Shown here in pieces: positions 50,337 through 59,434 of a stretch of 64,000 nucleotides of DNA. Made by a program: the position numbers and the translations under genes. Within the stretch, counting starts at the first letter, position 1. Every line of letters begins with the position of its first letter. The notes beneath the pieces were generated by a model that saw only the letters and a program-made list of their open reading frames with translations, did not search any database and was not told the DNA's origin. This stretch comes from Sphaerotilus uruguayifluvii (GTDB lineage Bacteria > Pseudomonadota > Gammaproteobacteria > Burkholderiales > Burkholderiaceae_C): positions 62,001-126,000 of the forward strand of contig NZ_JABSNM010000009.1 in assembly GCF_013294065.1 (NCBI RefSeq). Reading direction: 5' to 3'.

Positions 50337-52013
50337 ATGCTGAAGAACCCGTCTTCCAAGTACCGCCCCTTTCCTGCCATCGCCTTGCCTGACCGGCAGT
50401 GGCCGTCGCGCACCATCGAGCGCGCGCCGGTGTGGCTGTCCACCGACCTGCGCGACGGCAATCAGGCGCTGTTCGAGCCGATGAATGCCGAGCGCAAGCT
50501 GCGGCTGTTCGACCTGCTGGTGCAGGTCGGCCTGAAGGAGATCGAGGTGGGCTTTCCGGCTGCCTCGCAGACCGACTTCGACATCGTGCGCCACCTGATC
50601 GAGTCCGGCCGCGTGCCTGACGACGTGACGCTGATGGTCATGACGCAGGCCCGCGAGGACCTGATCGTGCGCACCGTCGAGGCCCTGCGCGGTGCCCGCC
50701 GTGCCATCGTGCATGTCTACAACGCCACCGCGCCGTTGTGGCGCCGCACGGTGTTCCGCCTGAGCGAGGACGAGGTCATGGCGCTGGTCGAGCGGCAGGT
50801 GCGCTGCCTGCGTCGGCTCACCGACGCCTGCCCCGACACCGAGTGGGTGCTGCAGTACTCGCCCGAGACCTTCTGCATGACCGAGCTGGAGGTGTCGCTG
50901 CGCGCCTGCACCACCGCGATGCAGGCCTGGGGCGCCGGGCCGGGCCGGCCGATCATCCTGAACCTGCCGACCACGGTCGAGGTCGCGACGCCCAACGTGT
51001 TCGCCGACCAGATCGAATGGATGGACCGGCATCTGCCGCAGCGCGAGCACGTCATCTTGTCGGTGCATCCGCACAACGACCGGGGCACCGGCGTGGCCTG
51101 CGCCGAACTGGCCCTGATGGCCGGTGCACAGCGCGTCGAGGGCTGCCTGTTCGGCAACGGCGAACGCAGCGGCAACGTCGATCTGGTGACGCTGGCGCTC
51201 AACCTGTACACCCAGGGCGTCGCGCCGGGGCTGGACTTCTCCGACCTCGGCGCGGTGGCGCGCACCGTCGAGGCCTGCACCGCACTGCCGGTGCATCCAC
51301 GCCATCCCTATGCCGGCGATCTGGTGCACACGGCCTTCTCCGGCTCGCACCAGGACGCCATCCGCAAGGGGCTGGCGGCACGAAGCGAAGGCGGTTTCTG
51401 GGAGGTGCCCTATCTGCCGATCGATCCGGCCGACATCGGCCGCACGTTCGACAATGTCATCCGCGTCAACAGCCAGTCCGGCAAGGGCGGCATCGCCTAC
51501 CTGATGGAGCGGCATTTCGGGCTGGTGATGCCCCGGCGCATGCAGGTCGAGTTCAGTGCCGTGGTGCAGGCCCATGCCGACACCAGCGAGGCCGAGGTCG
51601 ATGTCGACAGGCTCTGGACCTTGTTCGCCGCCACCTATCTGGCCCCGACCGCCGAGGGCGGGGCGCTGACCTGCCACGGCCACCGCTGCCATGCCATCAA
51701 TGCAGAGGGAGCAGGAGCCGCCGTGCGCGTCGAGCTGGACCTGACGCACCGGGGCATCCGCACCACGCTGCACGGCACCGGCACCGGCCCGGTGGACGCC
51801 ACCGTACAGGCCCTCGACCGCCATCTGCGCATCGACCACTTCGAGGAACGCTCCGCAAGCTCAGGCGCCGACGCCTCCGCATGGGCCATCGTCGAGATGG
51901 CCTGTCGGGACCAGCCCGGCACCCGATTTGGCGTCGGTCGGCATGCCGACATCGCCACGGCCGGCGTGCTGGCGGTACTGAGTGCAGCCGCGCGCTGGGA
52001 ACAGGTCAGCTGA
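50337..52013 (+). CDS. leuA: 2-isopropylmalate synthase (long LeuA2 form)
   Basis: 558 residues, beginning MLKNPSSKYRPFPAIALPDR as in the long fungal/actinobacterial-like class. TIM-barrel motifs STDLRDGNQALFEPM and SVHPHNDRGTGVACAE (metal His pair), then a C-terminal regulatory domain (about 430-555) that binds leucine. It commits 2-oxoisovalerate to leucine synthesis. The frame opens 26 codons earlier, but that stretch is the attenuator. Its TGA overlaps the ATG of a transposase remnant. Confidence 0.96.
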   Translation: MLKNPSSKYRPFPAIALPDRQWPSRTIERAPVWLSTDLRDGNQALFEPMNAERKLRLFDLLVQVGLKEIEVGFPAASQTDFDIVRHLIESGRVPDDVTLMVMTQAREDLIVRTVEALRGARRAIVHVYNATAPLWRRTVFRLSEDEVMALVERQVRCLRRLTDACPDTEWVLQYSPETFCMTELEVSLRACTTAMQAWGAGPGRPIILNLPTTVEVATPNVFADQIEWMDRHLPQREHVILSVHPHNDRGTGVACAELALMAGAQRVEGCLFGNGERSGNVDLVTLALNLYTQGVAPGLDFSDLGAVARTVEACTALPVHPRHPYAGDLVHTAFSGSHQDAIRKGLAARSEGGFWEVPYLPIDPADIGRTFDNVIRVNSQSGKGGIAYLMERHFGLVMPRRMQVEFSAVVQAHADTSEAEVDVDRLWTLFAATYLAPTAEGGALTCHGHRCHAINAEGAGAAVRVELDLTHRGIRTTLHGTGTGPVDATVQALDRHLRIDHFEERSASSGADASAWAIVEMACRDQPGTRFGVGRHADIATAGVLAVLSAAARWEQVS

Positions 52014-52351
52014 TGAACCGGCTGCAGCCGGTGAGCGAGTTCCACGGCGTGAGCGCGCTGGAGCGGGCTTTGAAAAATCAGGTTGGCGTCGTGCTGATCG
52101 ATGGCGGCTACACGGGCCGGCCGTTCGAGCGCGGCGTGCGCGAGATCCTGGGCGAGCAGGTGACGGTGGAGGTGGCCCGGCGCAGCGAACTGCACACCTT
52201 TGCGGTCATGCCCCAGCGCTGGATCGTCGAGCGCAGCTTCGCGTGGCTGGAGAAGAACCGGCGCCTGAGGAAGAACTGCGAGCGTTGGCTCAACACCAGC
52301 CTGCAGTTCGTCCATCTCGCCTTCCTGGCCTTGCTTCTCCGGAGATCGTGA
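52013..52351 (+). pseudogene. IS5-family transposase remnant (C-terminal part)
   Basis: A 112-codon frame. Residues from about 24 on (GVVLIDGGYTGRPFE and RWIVERSFAWLEKNRRLRKNCE) are the C-terminal DDE region of IS5-family transposases, with the last catalytic Glu in the ERSFAW motif. The N-terminal DNA-binding part and the first catalytic Asp are missing, so it cannot be active. Its first ATG overlaps the leuA stop, so the element apparently inserted or was deleted right at the leuA 3' end. Confidence 0.85.
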
Positions 52352-52439
52352 ACACGCTCTCAGGCCCTCTACCGCAACGCTCTTTGCCTTGACCTTCGTG
52401 CTCAACTATGCGGGCGTCAAGGAGCAGTGAACGGCCCTG

Positions 52440-52539: not shown

Positions 52540-52586
52540 GAGGCGTTTGACGAGCCAAGAGTCTGGCTAGACTCGTCGAGGCGTTT
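52540..52586 (+). promoter_or_regulatory. Candidate operator/promoter of the GTPase module
   Basis: GAGGCGTTT occurs twice in the same orientation (52540-52548 and 52578-52586, 38 bp apart). Between them lies the palindrome GAGTCTGGCTAGACTC (52559-52574). TTGACG (52547-52552) and TAGACT (52568-52573) could be -35 and -10, with a short 15-base spacer. No known regulator site was recognised. Confidence 0.45.
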
Positions 52587-52693
52587 CCCTGAGCTGGAAG
52601 ACTGGAAACGCATTATCACAATCCCGGGTGCCGTCTTCGAACAGCATTCACGCTTGTCGGGCAAGATCGACGCTCGTTCCCGATCCTGATTTC

Positions 52694-53572
52694 ATGACGG
52701 ATTTCTCGCAGTCATCCTCTCGTCCTCGCCTCTTCGTGCGCGCATGGCAGTTGCGTGATGCCGATGCGGGCGCGCTGAAGCTCTTCCTGAATCTGTTGCG
52801 TGGCCGGATGCAGGCCGAGTGGGTTTCCGGCGAGGACGGGCCGGTCGACCTGCTGGTCGCGCCAGTGGCGGCGGCGCCGCCGCCAGGTCAGGAAGCCTTG
52901 CACCTGCCGGGTCTGGTGCGGCTGTCGGTCGCTGCCGATGCCGCCGAGGCCGCTGCATCGCCACCGCCCGTGCTGTCGCGGCCGTTGCAGTTCGAGGATT
53001 TCGCCGCGTTCCTGCGGCAGATCGAGCCGGAACTGATCTCGACGCTGGAATCACGGCGCCCGGCACCTGCTGCTGCACCGACTCTTTCGCTTGAGCCTGC
53101 GTCTGCGTCTGCGTCTGCGTCTGCGCCGAAGCCGGTGGCGACACCGAGTCCTGTTTCCGAGCGCGCACCGGCCGCGACGGTCGAGCCGGCGACCGAGTCG
53201 CCGGCCGGTGCTCGCGTTGCGGCCCGTCCTCCGCTCGATTTGGCGCCCGGCGCTCGTGTGCGACTGCGACGCTGGCCCGATCCGGTCCAGTTGCAGGGGC
53301 GGCGCGGCCATCAACGGCTGGCCAGCCAGATCGCGTCCACTGCGCTCGAGCGCGACGATCTGCTGGCTCTGTCGGGCCTGCCGGCGGTCGAGGTCGATGC
53401 CTTCCTGGAGGCGATGCATCGCGCCGAACTGCTCGAGGTGCTGCCGCCGGAGCCTGCGGGTGCTGATCGGGCCGATGCTGGGACGCCTGCCGCGACGGAG
53501 GCTGCTCCGGAGCCTGTGCCAGGGAGCCTGTTCGGTCTGATCCGTCGCCGTCTGGGCATCGGCAATTCCTGA
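52694..53572 (+). CDS. Unknown protein of the GTPase/roadblock module
   Basis: 292 residues, not recognised. Residues 1-120 look folded (LFVRAWQLRDADAGALKLFLNLL ... FEDFAAFLRQIEPEL). Residues about 125-190 are an Ala/Pro/Ser linker containing a coded hexanucleotide repeat (ASASASASA). The C-terminal part (about 195-262) has LERDDLLALSGLPAVEVDAFLEAMHRAELLEVL, which resembles a winged helix such as the DUF742 protein of actinobacterial conservons; this is a weak analogy. The start at 52694 follows no clear ribosome site. The GTPase start is 4 bp after its stop. Confidence 0.75.
   Translation: MTDFSQSSSRPRLFVRAWQLRDADAGALKLFLNLLRGRMQAEWVSGEDGPVDLLVAPVAAAPPPGQEALHLPGLVRLSVAADAAEAAASPPPVLSRPLQFEDFAAFLRQIEPELISTLESRRPAPAAAPTLSLEPASASASASAPKPVATPSPVSERAPAATVEPATESPAGARVAARPPLDLAPGARVRLRRWPDPVQLQGRRGHQRLASQIASTALERDDLLALSGLPAVEVDAFLEAMHRAELLEVLPPEPAGADRADAGTPAATEAAPEPVPGSLFGLIRRRLGIGNS
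53097..53125 (+). repeat. In-frame hexanucleotide repeat (CTGCGT)
   Basis: Four perfect CTGCGT units and a partial fifth code alternating Ala-Ser in the linker of the unknown protein. Gain or loss of units by slippage would change linker length by two residues without shifting frame. Confidence 0.85.
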
Positions 53573-53576
53573 GCAT

Positions 53577-54170
53577 GTGTCCCGGTCCAGTCTGATGCGC
53601 GACTGCAAGATCGTCTTCACGGGCACGCCTGGCGCCGGCAAGACCACGGCCATCGGCGCGATCAGCGACACGCCGCCCGTGGTCACCGACGTGCCCAACC
53701 GCGATCCCTCTCTGGCGAAGGAGCGCACCACCGTCGGCATGGACTACGGCGAGGTGGTGATCGCCGACCTGGTGCGCGTGCGTCTGTTCGGCACGCCTGG
53801 GCAGGTTCGATTCGATTTTCTCTGGCCCATCCTCGCCCACAAGGCCATGGGCCTGGTGATTCTGGTCGACAACAGCCGGCCGGATCCACTGGCCGACCTG
53901 CGGCTCTACCTCGATGCCTTTGCCGAGCAGCTCGAGCACACCGCCTGTGTCATCGGCATTGGCCGGACCGAGTCCCACGCCACGCCAAGCCTGCAGTTCT
54001 TCGTCGACGAGCTGGTGCGGCGGGGGCGGGTGTTCCCGGTGCTGCCGGTCGATGTGCGTGAGCGTGACCAGGTGCTGATGCTGCTCGACTGCGTGCTGGC
54101 GCAGGTCGAGGCCCGCAACCGCGCCGGGCTGGGGCTGCCGGGCCTGCGCCGGACCCGCCGCGGCGGATGA
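53577..54170 (+). CDS. Small Ras-like GTPase (MglA/CvnD type)
   Basis: 197 residues from a GTG at 53577; an ATG at 53595 (MRDCKIVFTG) is equally likely. G1 is GTPGAGKTT (16-24), the G2 region is KERTTVGMDYG (48-58), and G3 is LFGTPGQ (70-76), the form seen in bacterial GTPases paired with roadblock proteins. The G4 position reads GRTE (129-132) rather than NKxD, so guanine specificity may be altered. The family acts as a GTP-loaded switch in polarity or signalling. A roadblock gene follows 122 bp later. Confidence 0.87.
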   Translation: MSRSSLMRDCKIVFTGTPGAGKTTAIGAISDTPPVVTDVPNRDPSLAKERTTVGMDYGEVVIADLVRVRLFGTPGQVRFDFLWPILAHKAMGLVILVDNSRPDPLADLRLYLDAFAEQLEHTACVIGIGRTESHATPSLQFFVDELVRRGRVFPVLPVDVRERDQVLMLLDCVLAQVEARNRAGLGLPGLRRTRRGG

Positions 54171-54292
54171 GCAGCGCCCGCCAGCGCAGGAGAAATTTCC
54201 ATTCGAGGTCGCGGGCTGCCTCGCCGCCCATGACCGCCCGACCTGATCCTTGTCCTCAACAATTCCACACTGACCACGGAAGGAAACTCAAC

Positions 54293-54652
54293 ATGGCCAA
54301 CATCAAGCAGAGCCTGGAGCAGCTGATGACCGTCGACGGCGCGATGTGCGCCGCCCTCGTCGACTCGGAGAGCGGCATGATGCTCGGATCGACCGGCTCC
54401 GGCGTCGACCTGGAAATCGCCGCCGCCGGCAACACCGAAGTGATGCGTGCCAAGCTGCGCACGATGAAGCAGCTCGGTCTGGACGATCGCATCGACGACA
54501 TCCTGATCACGCTGGGCAAGCAGTACCACATCATCCGTCCGTGCTCGCGCCAAGAAGGCATGTTCTTCTACTTCGTTCTGGACAAGGGCCGCTCGAATCT
54601 GGCGCTTGCCCGCCGCAAGGCCACGGACGTCGACCGCGACCTGCAGTTCTGA
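54293..54652 (+). CDS. Roadblock/LC7-domain protein (MglB-like)
   Basis: 119 residues forming one complete roadblock fold (about 5-105): IKQSLEQLMTVDGAMCAALVD, MMLGSTGSGVDLEIAAAGNTEV and FFYFVLDKGRSNLALARRK. Bacterial roadblock dimers act as GAPs or scaffolds for a small GTPase coded nearby, as MglB does for MglA; here that is the gene ending at 54170. GGAAGGA lies about 9 bases before the ATG, the best ribosome site of the three-gene module. Confidence 0.9.
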   Translation: MANIKQSLEQLMTVDGAMCAALVDSESGMMLGSTGSGVDLEIAAAGNTEVMRAKLRTMKQLGLDDRIDDILITLGKQYHIIRPCSRQEGMFFYFVLDKGRSNLALARRKATDVDRDLQF

Positions 54653-57603: not shown

Positions 57604-57628
57604 GCGGCCGCCCGGATCGGCCGCGGTG

Positions 57629-59434
57629 ATGGCCCGGGTCGCGCGTCTGGTCGTCGTCGGTCCCGGCGAGGGGAGCGGCGGCGACGATCCGGCGCAGCAG
57701 CGCTCCGAGCGCCGCTCGGTGCAGCGCCGGCTCGACGACGCCGCCTTTGCCGACGCCTTCGAGCGTGCTCCGGGCGTGCTGCTGGTGCTGGCGATGGCGC
57801 AGGTGGTCAGCGCGGTCTGGCTCGGGGCGCTGCAGCAGCGCGGCGCGGTGCTGCTGTGCGCGGCGCTGTCGCTGGGCTGGCTGCTGCTGTGCGCGCTGGG
57901 CCAGCGCGGGCTGCGCCTGACCACGGACGAGATGCCTCGGCGCGAGGACCTGCGCCATCGACGCCGGCGCTGGCAGCGGCTGATGATGCCGGCGCTGCTG
58001 ACGCCCTCGGCGGTGCTGGTCGCCGACCTGCTCTCGGCCGGGCGGGTCGAGCTCGAGGCGGTGGTCGTGCTGGTGCTGGTGTGCCTGTATGCCGCCTCGG
58101 TCTGGGCGGCGCGGCCGGTGCTGGGCAGCGCCGCGGCGCTGGGCGCGGCCACCTGCGCGCTGGTGTGCGCGGTGCGCGGCGAGTACCGGCTGGCGCTGTC
58201 GCTGGCGGCCGCGGCGATGCTGGCGCTGTGGCTGCGTCGCCAGGTCGCGGCGGTCTGGCTGCGCGCGATGCGCGCGCGGCTCGATGCCGACGATCTCGGC
58301 GCGGCGCTGGCCCGCGAGCGCGACGCGGCGGTGCGCGCGCAGCATGACGCGCACCGCTTCGTCGCCACCGCCAGCCACGACCTGCGCCAGCCGATGCATG
58401 CGCTCGGCCTGTTCGTCTCGTCGCTGGAGCGCCGGCTGCAGGGGGCGCCGGAGGAGTTCATCGTGCGCAACATGGTCCGCTCGATCGAGGCGCTGGACCA
58501 GTCCTTCGGCGCGATGCTCGACATCTCGCGGCTCGAGGCCGGCTCGATGGAGGTCAACCTGCAGCATTTCGCGCTGCGCGACGTCTTTCGCCGGCTGCAT
58601 CTGCATTTCGCCGGGCTGGCCGAGGCGGCGGGGCTGGGCCTGCGCTTCTCGCCGGGCGGCAAGTCGGTGCGCAGCGACCCGCAGCTGCTCGAGCGGGTGC
58701 TGGGCAACCTGGTGCAGAACGCGCTGCGCCACACCCGCGAGGGCGGCGTGGTGGTGGTCGCGCGCAGCACCCGCACCCACACGAACATCGAGGTCTGGGA
58801 CACCGGCAGCGGCATCGCGCCCGAGGAGCTGCCGCGCATCTTCGACGAGTTCTACCAGGTCCGCGAGGGCGCGCGGCGCCGCCAGCGCGGCCTGGGCCTG
58901 GGCCTGGCGATCGTGCGCCGGCTGGTGCGGCTGATGGGGCACACGCTGACCGTGGCGTCCTGCCCGGGGCGGGGCACGATGTTCCGCATCGGCATCGCCA
59001 CCGGCGATCTCGACGAGCTCGAGCGCGCCACCGCCGCAGCCGACACCGTGCCGCTGCCGGTCTTCGAGGCGCGCTCGATCCTGGTCATCGACGACGACGA
59101 GGCGATCCGCGAGGGCCTGGGCGCGGTGCTGTCGGAATGGGGCTACGAGGTGCATGCGGCCGCCGGCATCGGCGAGGCGATGCAGCTCGCGCGCGAGAGC
59201 GGCGGCGCGATCGACCTGATCCTGTCGGACCTGCATCTGGCCGACGGCGAGGACGGTCTCGACGCGGTCGAGAGCGTGCGCCGGATCTGCGGCCTGCCGG
59301 TGCCGGCGCTGGTCATCACCGGCGACACCACCGCCGACGAGATGCGCCGCGTCGGCGAGGCCGGCATGGTGCTGCTGTTCAAGCCGCTGCAGCCGCGGCG
59401 GCTGATGGCGGCGCTGCGGCAGATGACGCGCTGA
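57629..59434 (+). CDS. Hybrid membrane histidine kinase with C-terminal receiver
   Basis: About 601 residues. Six hydrophobic helices (about 50-205) without a large periplasmic domain, then HisKA with ATASHDLRQPMHALG (His about 250), a HATPase domain (NLVQNALRHTREGG, DTGSGIAPEELPRIFDEFYQ, GLGLGLAIV) and a C-terminal receiver (about 485-600) with ILVIDDDEAIREG and LILSDLHL. Signal is unknown. The codon before the ATG is GTG, so the start could be 57626. It pairs with the response regulator just upstream. Confidence 0.92.
   Translation: MARVARLVVVGPGEGSGGDDPAQQRSERRSVQRRLDDAAFADAFERAPGVLLVLAMAQVVSAVWLGALQQRGAVLLCAALSLGWLLLCALGQRGLRLTTDEMPRREDLRHRRRRWQRLMMPALLTPSAVLVADLLSAGRVELEAVVVLVLVCLYAASVWAARPVLGSAAALGAATCALVCAVRGEYRLALSLAAAAMLALWLRRQVAAVWLRAMRARLDADDLGAALARERDAAVRAQHDAHRFVATASHDLRQPMHALGLFVSSLERRLQGAPEEFIVRNMVRSIEALDQSFGAMLDISRLEAGSMEVNLQHFALRDVFRRLHLHFAGLAEAAGLGLRFSPGGKSVRSDPQLLERVLGNLVQNALRHTREGGVVVVARSTRTHTNIEVWDTGSGIAPEELPRIFDEFYQVREGARRRQRGLGLGLAIVRRLVRLMGHTLTVASCPGRGTMFRIGIATGDLDELERATAAADTVPLPVFEARSILVIDDDEAIREGLGAVLSEWGYEVHAAAGIGEAMQLARESGGAIDLILSDLHLADGEDGLDAVESVRRICGLPVPALVITGDTTADEMRRVGEAGMVLLFKPLQPRRLMAALRQMTR

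Follow-up and report, generated by a model that had tools for sequence, protein, structure and literature searches.

A three-gene GTPase module assigned to MglA Group 3, with a single roadblock-fold partner, in a Sphaerotilus genome

Results

Gene content and layout of the module

The ORF list and sequence of the analyzed stretch of 64,000 nucleotides (the window) show three adjoining genes in the same orientation. These are X, a protein of 292 aa found as an ORF call (52694–53572, plus strand), a GTPase of the MglA family with 191 aa from an ATG start (53595–54170, plus strand), recognized by its ORF, Pfam match, alignment and tree position, and R, a protein of 119 aa (54293–54652, plus strand) that its model and fold matches place with the roadblock proteins. 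A three-gene module of this composition had been proposed in an earlier note made from the DNA letters, and the ORFs confirmed it. The note placed the GTPase 4 bp after X, a figure that rests on a GTG at 53577 and does not hold: the start is the ATG at 53595, which matches the first start of the Sphaerotilus natans ORF and lies 22 bp past the X stop. R starts at the ATG at 54293 and not at 54167, so that 122 bp separate it from the GTPase, compared with 51 bp and 92 bp at the related loci L004 and L005.

The host is a Sphaerotilus-like beta-proteobacterium, its GTPase being 88–89% identical to those of S. natans, S. sulfidivorans and a MAG. The ORFs of X, GTPase and R are uninterrupted in the source genome, in both of these species and in the MAG (L003). 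Identity to L003–L005 is 87–95% for R, 88–89% for the GTPase and 58–68% for X, which makes R the best conserved of the three.

As read by eye, a leuA-like ORF and a transposase-like fragment lie upstream of the module, the fragment at 51982–52392 between the leuA-like gene and X, and two DMT-type transporter ORFs lie downstream. The nearest kinase-like ORF, also read by eye, is at 57626–59434, and the module itself contains no histidine kinase or CvnA-like protein, in agreement with the earlier note. A scan for sigma-70 promoters and terminators found 0 and 1 sites, compared with 0.1 and 1.5 expected.

Co-occurrence of X, GTPase and roadblock genes

A GTPase search of the order of the host gave matches in 23 of 250 genomes and 16 of 121 genera (E ≤ 1e-10); three of its matches had no locus and lie outside of the 35 GTPase loci (L002–L036) that were compared. 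With an iterated profile, X could be located upstream in 32 of the 35 loci, some of which come from related genomes and are therefore not all independent. In 30 loci X directly adjoins the GTPase, and in L025 and L026 about 0.9 kb separates the two; the same profile did not find X in the other three loci (L030, L033, L034). Because X is found upstream in so many of the loci, its pairing with the GTPase is not due to chance. A wider set of 28 sources included 27 with a GTPase; 26 of these had X, and 26 had a roadblock gene no more than about 2 kb off. Neither X nor a roadblock was found at L089, and the roadblock match at L072 is a short fragment. The co-occurrence on which the earlier note had staked its module was thus borne out.

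Two layouts can be distinguished. Type A (16 sources) contains a short X, the GTPase, RblA, sometimes RblB, and R, while type B (10 sources) contains a long X, the GTPase, often a protein that we call WR and take, from inspection by eye, to combine a winged helix with a roadblock, and Rbl2. In a search across the class, R was detected in 16 of 369 genomes. Among 29 R loci, including that of the window, a GTPase lies within about 1.5 kb in 18, and two more have X.

Several loci have further neighbors. PhnD-like (phosphonate-binding) genes are present at six of the 10 type B loci (L066, L078, L081, L084, L086, L088), and are perhaps a sensor part. On a plasmid of Agarilytica rhodophyticola (L102), genes for R, a BLUF-domain protein, a GTPase and a roadblock protein stand in a row, possibly a light-input version of the switch. 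On a plasmid of Thermus brockianus (L097), a GTPase gene adjoins DUF4388, protoglobin-domain and EAL-domain genes, possibly a link to oxygen and c-di-GMP. A 2.17 Mb record of Neisseria gonorrhoeae (L092) is filed as a plasmid and, judged from its size, looks like a chromosome; its X and GTPase look broken, since their matches are spread over several reading frames.

Motifs and phylogeny of the GTPase

The GTPase contains the two motifs quoted in the earlier note, the G1 P-loop GTPGAGKTT (53622–53648, plus strand) and the G3 motif LFGTPGQ (53784–53804, plus strand), both also evident in the alignment. G2 reads KERTTVGMD, with Thr in the place of the Arg finger. At the G4 position (53961–53972, plus strand), GRTE replaces [NT]KxD, as the note had stated, where relatives have TKMD. 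G5 is D-V-R (54051–54059, plus strand), an instance of the D-x-R motif of Groups 2 and 3, given as DAR in the available text of PMC4316618.

The D-x-R motif was present in all 36 rows of the alignment, and strict [NT]KxD at G4 in 9 of 36. G4 follows lineage: nine type B rows have TKMD or TKTD, the paralogue in the same genome has TQMD, and the clade of the window has GRTE, GRTD, GRME, GRLD or GRMH. We therefore rejected the idea that the altered G4 is a quirk of one gene; its variation is also noted for Groups 2 and 3 (PMC4316618).

In a tree of 46 sequences, the window GTPase joins L003–L005 (100/99), and then L006–L009 (96/92). Six Streptomyces CvnD sequences form a separate clade (100/99), the deep forks between which and the window clade are open in this tree. 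An open group of 29 rows takes in CvnD together with type B rows, type A rows do not form one clade, and the tree has long branches; Group 3 does not emerge as one clade in this tree, built without published Group 3 rows.

R and the missing RblA

The note had called the third gene product a roadblock/LC7 protein, which stood as to fold: the Pfam model Robl_LC7 did not match R at E ≤ 1, although the RblA relatives and the Rbl2 of the same genome do match the Pfam roadblock model. In the AF2 model of R (mean pLDDT 73), the best structural match is the roadblock structure 3leq (Z 10.7, rmsd 3.1 over 94 residues), and the 50 matches listed are mostly roadblock/MglB or Rag/Gtr/Ragulator entries, with three profilins. 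Judged from this model, R is a roadblock-fold protein of a distinct subfamily. It is 70–95% identical to six relatives. By eye, RblA and Rbl2 have DG at the first beta-turn, a possible counterpart of the conserved DG pair of MglB; R reads DSESG there. At L067 (6351–7682, minus strand), an R-type roadblock stands at the C-terminal end of an orphan protein that is much longer than R.

RblA was found in 11 of the 16 type A sources, and was not found in the window, L004, L005, L072 or L076. L076 leaves room for an undetected RblA, and the window, L004 and L005 leave none, because their gaps between GTPase and R are only 51–122 bp. No close RblA copy was found elsewhere in the genome, where an RblA query matched only a second Group 3 locus, and that weakly; the sole Pfam roadblock match of the genome is in this locus too. 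Beside this GTPase, the lineage thus seems to have retained R alone. The earlier description of the module as reduced is apt in respect of the absent RblA; descent from a conservon was not supported.

Domains and predicted fold of X

X, which the note described as an unrecognized protein of 292 residues, has no match to any Pfam family at E ≤ 1. Alignment columns delimit a receiver-like N-terminal domain (52721–53059, plus strand), followed by an Ala/Pro-rich linker of variable length (53060–53251, plus strand; alignments, and low pLDDT over most of its length), a winged helix (residues 187–252; 53252–53449, plus strand; pLDDT 75–85 by blocks, fold matches and column counts) and a basic C-terminal tail, SLFGLIRRRLGIGNS (53525–53569, plus strand).

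The receiver-like assignment comes from relatives. An alignment of 13 selected N-termini (A4), from which the window was left out, gave a profile whose PDB matches are receivers by name in 32 of 35 rows (best E 0.0025), and Pfam Response_reg matched 3 of the 13 N-termini at E ≤ 1 (best 0.013). For X of the window it is based on alignment, the model being of low confidence there and without a visible receiver domain. The phosphorylation Asp is present in 13/13 of the selected sequences and in 16/29 over all relatives with letters at that column, where L002, cut short at this point, is counted as without Asp. The column holds Pro in the window (LLVAPV) and in L003–L005, and the K-P of long X forms is R-P in the window. 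The acidic pair of true receivers was not seen by eye on the first strand of A4.

Whole X was modeled with a mean pLDDT of 50; most of the model lies below 50, and only the winged helix is usable. Foldseek gave nothing at E ≤ 0.001, its best E for GATOR1/SEA chains being 0.51. A second structural comparison aligned the winged helix with an RNA polymerase III winged helix (Z 9.0), with chains named in entry titles as GATOR1/SEA complex (Z 6.8–8.1) and with ArsR types (Z about 5–7); according to the warning of the tool, a Z near 8 may reflect merely a common arrangement. A 22-row winged-helix alignment matched SmtB/ArsR-type proteins, with a repeat protein and a chain of 66 residues ranking above them. 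The model and fold matches agree with the earlier proposal of a winged helix behind a flexible linker, a feature already published for Group 3 in 2014 (PMC4316618).

Trp194 in the winged helix is present in 33/33 X. Similar basic tails were seen by eye in most relatives, and the best 11-mer has a mean net charge of +2.5. A membrane-targeting role for the tail is at most a conjecture: the hydrophobic moment beat shuffled sequences (p < 0.1) in only 10/33, with p 0.47 in the window.

Assignment to Group 3 and a second locus in the same genome

Wuichet & Sogaard-Andersen (2014, PMC4316618) divided MglA GTPases into five groups. According to the available text, Group 3 is almost confined to beta- and gamma-proteobacteria, and its systems typically combine MglA with one or two MglB and a conserved protein whose function is unknown. 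By Phyre2, this protein resembles a receiver at its N-terminus and a winged helix at its C-terminus, and the authors suggested a part for it in transcription. In Groups 2 and 3, G4 departs from [NT]KxD and G5 is DAR; in Group 1, G2 contains Arg and G3 reads TVPGQ. The window fits the Group 3 description point by point: in taxon range, the closest named GTPase relatives being in Sphaerotilus, Lampropedia, Variovorax and a Lysobacterales MAG; in gene content, X–GTPase–R; and in the Group 2/3 motifs of the GTPase, with TT in G2, GTPGQ in G3, a deviating G4 and D-x-R in G5. The module is therefore almost certainly a Group 3 system, with X as its protein of unknown function. It is real, conserved and already classified, and the system as such, described in 2014, is not new (PMC4316618).

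Among the open-access papers listed, only PMC4316618 and PMC11112851 were recognized as dealing with Group 3, with experiments in one study only. A further paper (PMC5913851; Neisseria, mouse) proved not to be Group 3 work, and uses "roadblock" in the everyday sense.

The same genome contains a second Group 3 locus (L066:2549–9667), whose GTPase is 43% identical to that of the window. Its genes encode a bactofilin (PF04519, 2.2e-25), a TPR-like protein below the cut-off of its model, long X, the GTPase, WR, a roadblock protein, a PAS protein, a PhnD-like protein and a FimV_core protein (4.6e-19). A general link with FimV was rejected, since a FimV query matched in only one of 28 sources.

Snodgrassella has an mglA that is placed in Group 3, and a point mutation in its orphan mglB resulted in flares on soft agar and altered spreading and colonization; the authors read the flares as altered T4P motility (PMC11112851, available text). 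PilB exceeded its curated cut-off in 20/23 Group 3 genomes and 115/227 others of the order (Fisher p 7.5e-4, in a comparison that ignores the shared ancestry of 23 genomes from 16 genera), and some PilB-like match was present in 233/250 genomes. Because of the bactofilin and FimV-like protein of the second locus, the Snodgrassella mutant and the PilB counts, the evidence points to polarity or type IV pili as the output, and weakly so for the copy in the window, beside which nothing pointing to pili was found.

Discussion

Proposed mechanism

From these features we infer the following interactions and output, the GEF idea by analogy, and we would give the scheme as a whole an even chance of being correct. 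The GTPase would act as a GTP/GDP switch. X would bind it via the winged helix and regulate it from upstream, a GEF or localizing scaffold being the most plausible forms of such a regulator; the receiver-like domain of X would be a docking part, phosphorylation here being probably impossible. R, as roadblock partner, would control hydrolysis or assembly. As its output, the module would probably position a polar or surface machine (type IV pili, for example) or set its activity, and not control transcription directly. GEF or scaffold is our best guess for X because in conservons MfpC, homologous to CvnC, is reported to be a likely GEF and MfpD, homologous to CvnB, a GAP (PMC13343842, available text), and because the winged helix of X has a weak profile likeness to CvnC.

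Alternative explanations

X might instead be a DNA-binding output regulator, in which case the GTPase/roadblock pair would control a degenerate response regulator that binds promoters. The earlier note suggested a DNA link, as had Wuichet & Sogaard-Andersen in print (PMC4316618), and it suits the combination of receiver-like domain and winged helix, which is the layout of response regulators, the ArsR-type repressors among the structural and profile matches, the net positive charge of the whole winged helix in 26/33 X (though −2 in the window) and the altered gene expression of conservon mutants (PMC13343842, available text). The recognition helix argues the other way, with a net charge of −3 in the window and a mean of −0.76 over 33 X, compared with +0.83 over 18 ArsR proteins of the same order (p 1.9e-4, ignoring relatedness). 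These 18 passed a motif filter applied to 30 loci, 12 being dropped, and the filter requires a Ser-polar pattern, so that it favors clear DNA binders. An aromatic residue (F/Y/W) at position 237, inside the recognition helix, is conserved in 27/33 X. The acidic helix is only moderate evidence, because X (13/33) and ArsR (7/18) have K or R among the first nine residues of this helix about equally often. On these sequence features the winged helix leans to protein binding. Since it is acidic and its weak matches include GATOR1/SEA chains, the likelihood that X acts on other proteins, as GEF or scaffold, is no lower than that of DNA binding. The acidic helix speaks mildly against the DNA link, which is unproven, and we regard promoter binding by X as rather unlikely. 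That the module is decaying, the absence of RblA and of the receiver Asp meaning that the switch no longer cycles, appears improbable. RblA is indeed missing from the window, L004 and L005, with no close copy elsewhere in the genome, and the receiver position has no Asp, but all three ORFs are uninterrupted across four genomes and R, the remaining roadblock, is the best conserved gene. The lack of Asp is not special to this lineage, as 13/29 relatives also lack it.

The earlier note compared the module with conservons, X taking the place of CvnC (DUF742), and suggested that it may be a reduced switch. The partners are the same, a GTPase and a roadblock protein with a winged-helix-like third protein, and in a profile comparison with six CvnC the X winged helix gave a colinear match of 67 columns (P 7.7e-4, probability 10%). 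This likeness is weak, hhalign giving 10.2, 3.7 and 0.3% probability with three alignments, so that none exceeds 10.2%. DUF742 did not match any of seven X, and was absent among the matches listed for 22 winged-helix members (25/41 families). The module has no histidine kinase, its order is X–GTPase–R compared with kinase–roadblock–DUF742–GTPase in conservons, and CvnD is a clade of its own. We consequently dropped descent as a reduced conservon, which is disfavored by the missing kinase, the missing DUF742 and the separate CvnD clade, with the deep forks open; as a reading of the module it is very improbable.

A more far-reaching reading would make X a protein-binding winged-helix regulator of the GTPase, like CvnC/MfpC in being a GEF and akin to GATOR1/SEA. 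An ancient pairing of GTPase, roadblock and non-DNA-binding winged helix would lie behind it, tied to polarity through bactofilin and FimV. We think this unlikely; the WR protein of the sister loci, provided that it does combine a winged helix with a roadblock, would belong to the same picture.

Significance and comparison with known systems

Group 3 is a proteobacterial branch of bacterial Ras-like signaling, and the copy in the window is near-minimal, with one X, one GTPase and one roadblock protein. Its near-identical relatives in cultured Sphaerotilus make it a convenient case for deciding whether X is a GEF, a scaffold or a transcription factor. Should its winged helix bind protein, X would connect the control of GTPases in bacteria with that in eukaryotes. 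With the classification already published, what makes the module interesting is its putative mechanism and its pared-down form.

Streptomyces conservons (CvnA–D) likewise combine a small GTPase with D-x-R at G5, a roadblock protein and a small third protein, the last with weak profile likeness to the X winged helix. They differ in having a histidine-kinase-like CvnA and the DUF742 protein CvnC, and their GTPases form a separate clade. In eukaryotes, chains of GATOR1/SEA, which acts with Rag GTPases, align with the X winged helix (Z 6.8–8.1), but the best Foldseek E is not significant and a longin domain was not seen in X; Npr2/Npr3 are described as a longin domain, said to be related to roadblock, followed by tandem winged helices (PMC3521125, available text). 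Myxococcus MglA/MglB and SofG (Group 1) also pair a Ras-like GTPase with roadblock proteins and function in polarity and T4P, and SofG localization involves bactofilin (PMC5703909, available text). The GTPases differ, Group 1 having Arg in G2 and TVPGQ in G3 where the window has Thr and GTPGQ.

Closest are the systems of Group 3 itself. The Snodgrassella mgl locus has a Group 3 MglA with MglB partners, as here, but with three mglB, one of them an orphan, compared with the single coupled R of the window (PMC11112851, available text). Systems with one MglB were already known to PMC4316618. Compared with the published Group 3, as far as its available text describes it, the window has a single roadblock protein, of the R subfamily, and lacks RblA and the receiver Asp, while sharing the taxon range, the gene content, the pattern of G2, G3, G4 and G5, and the two-ended X.
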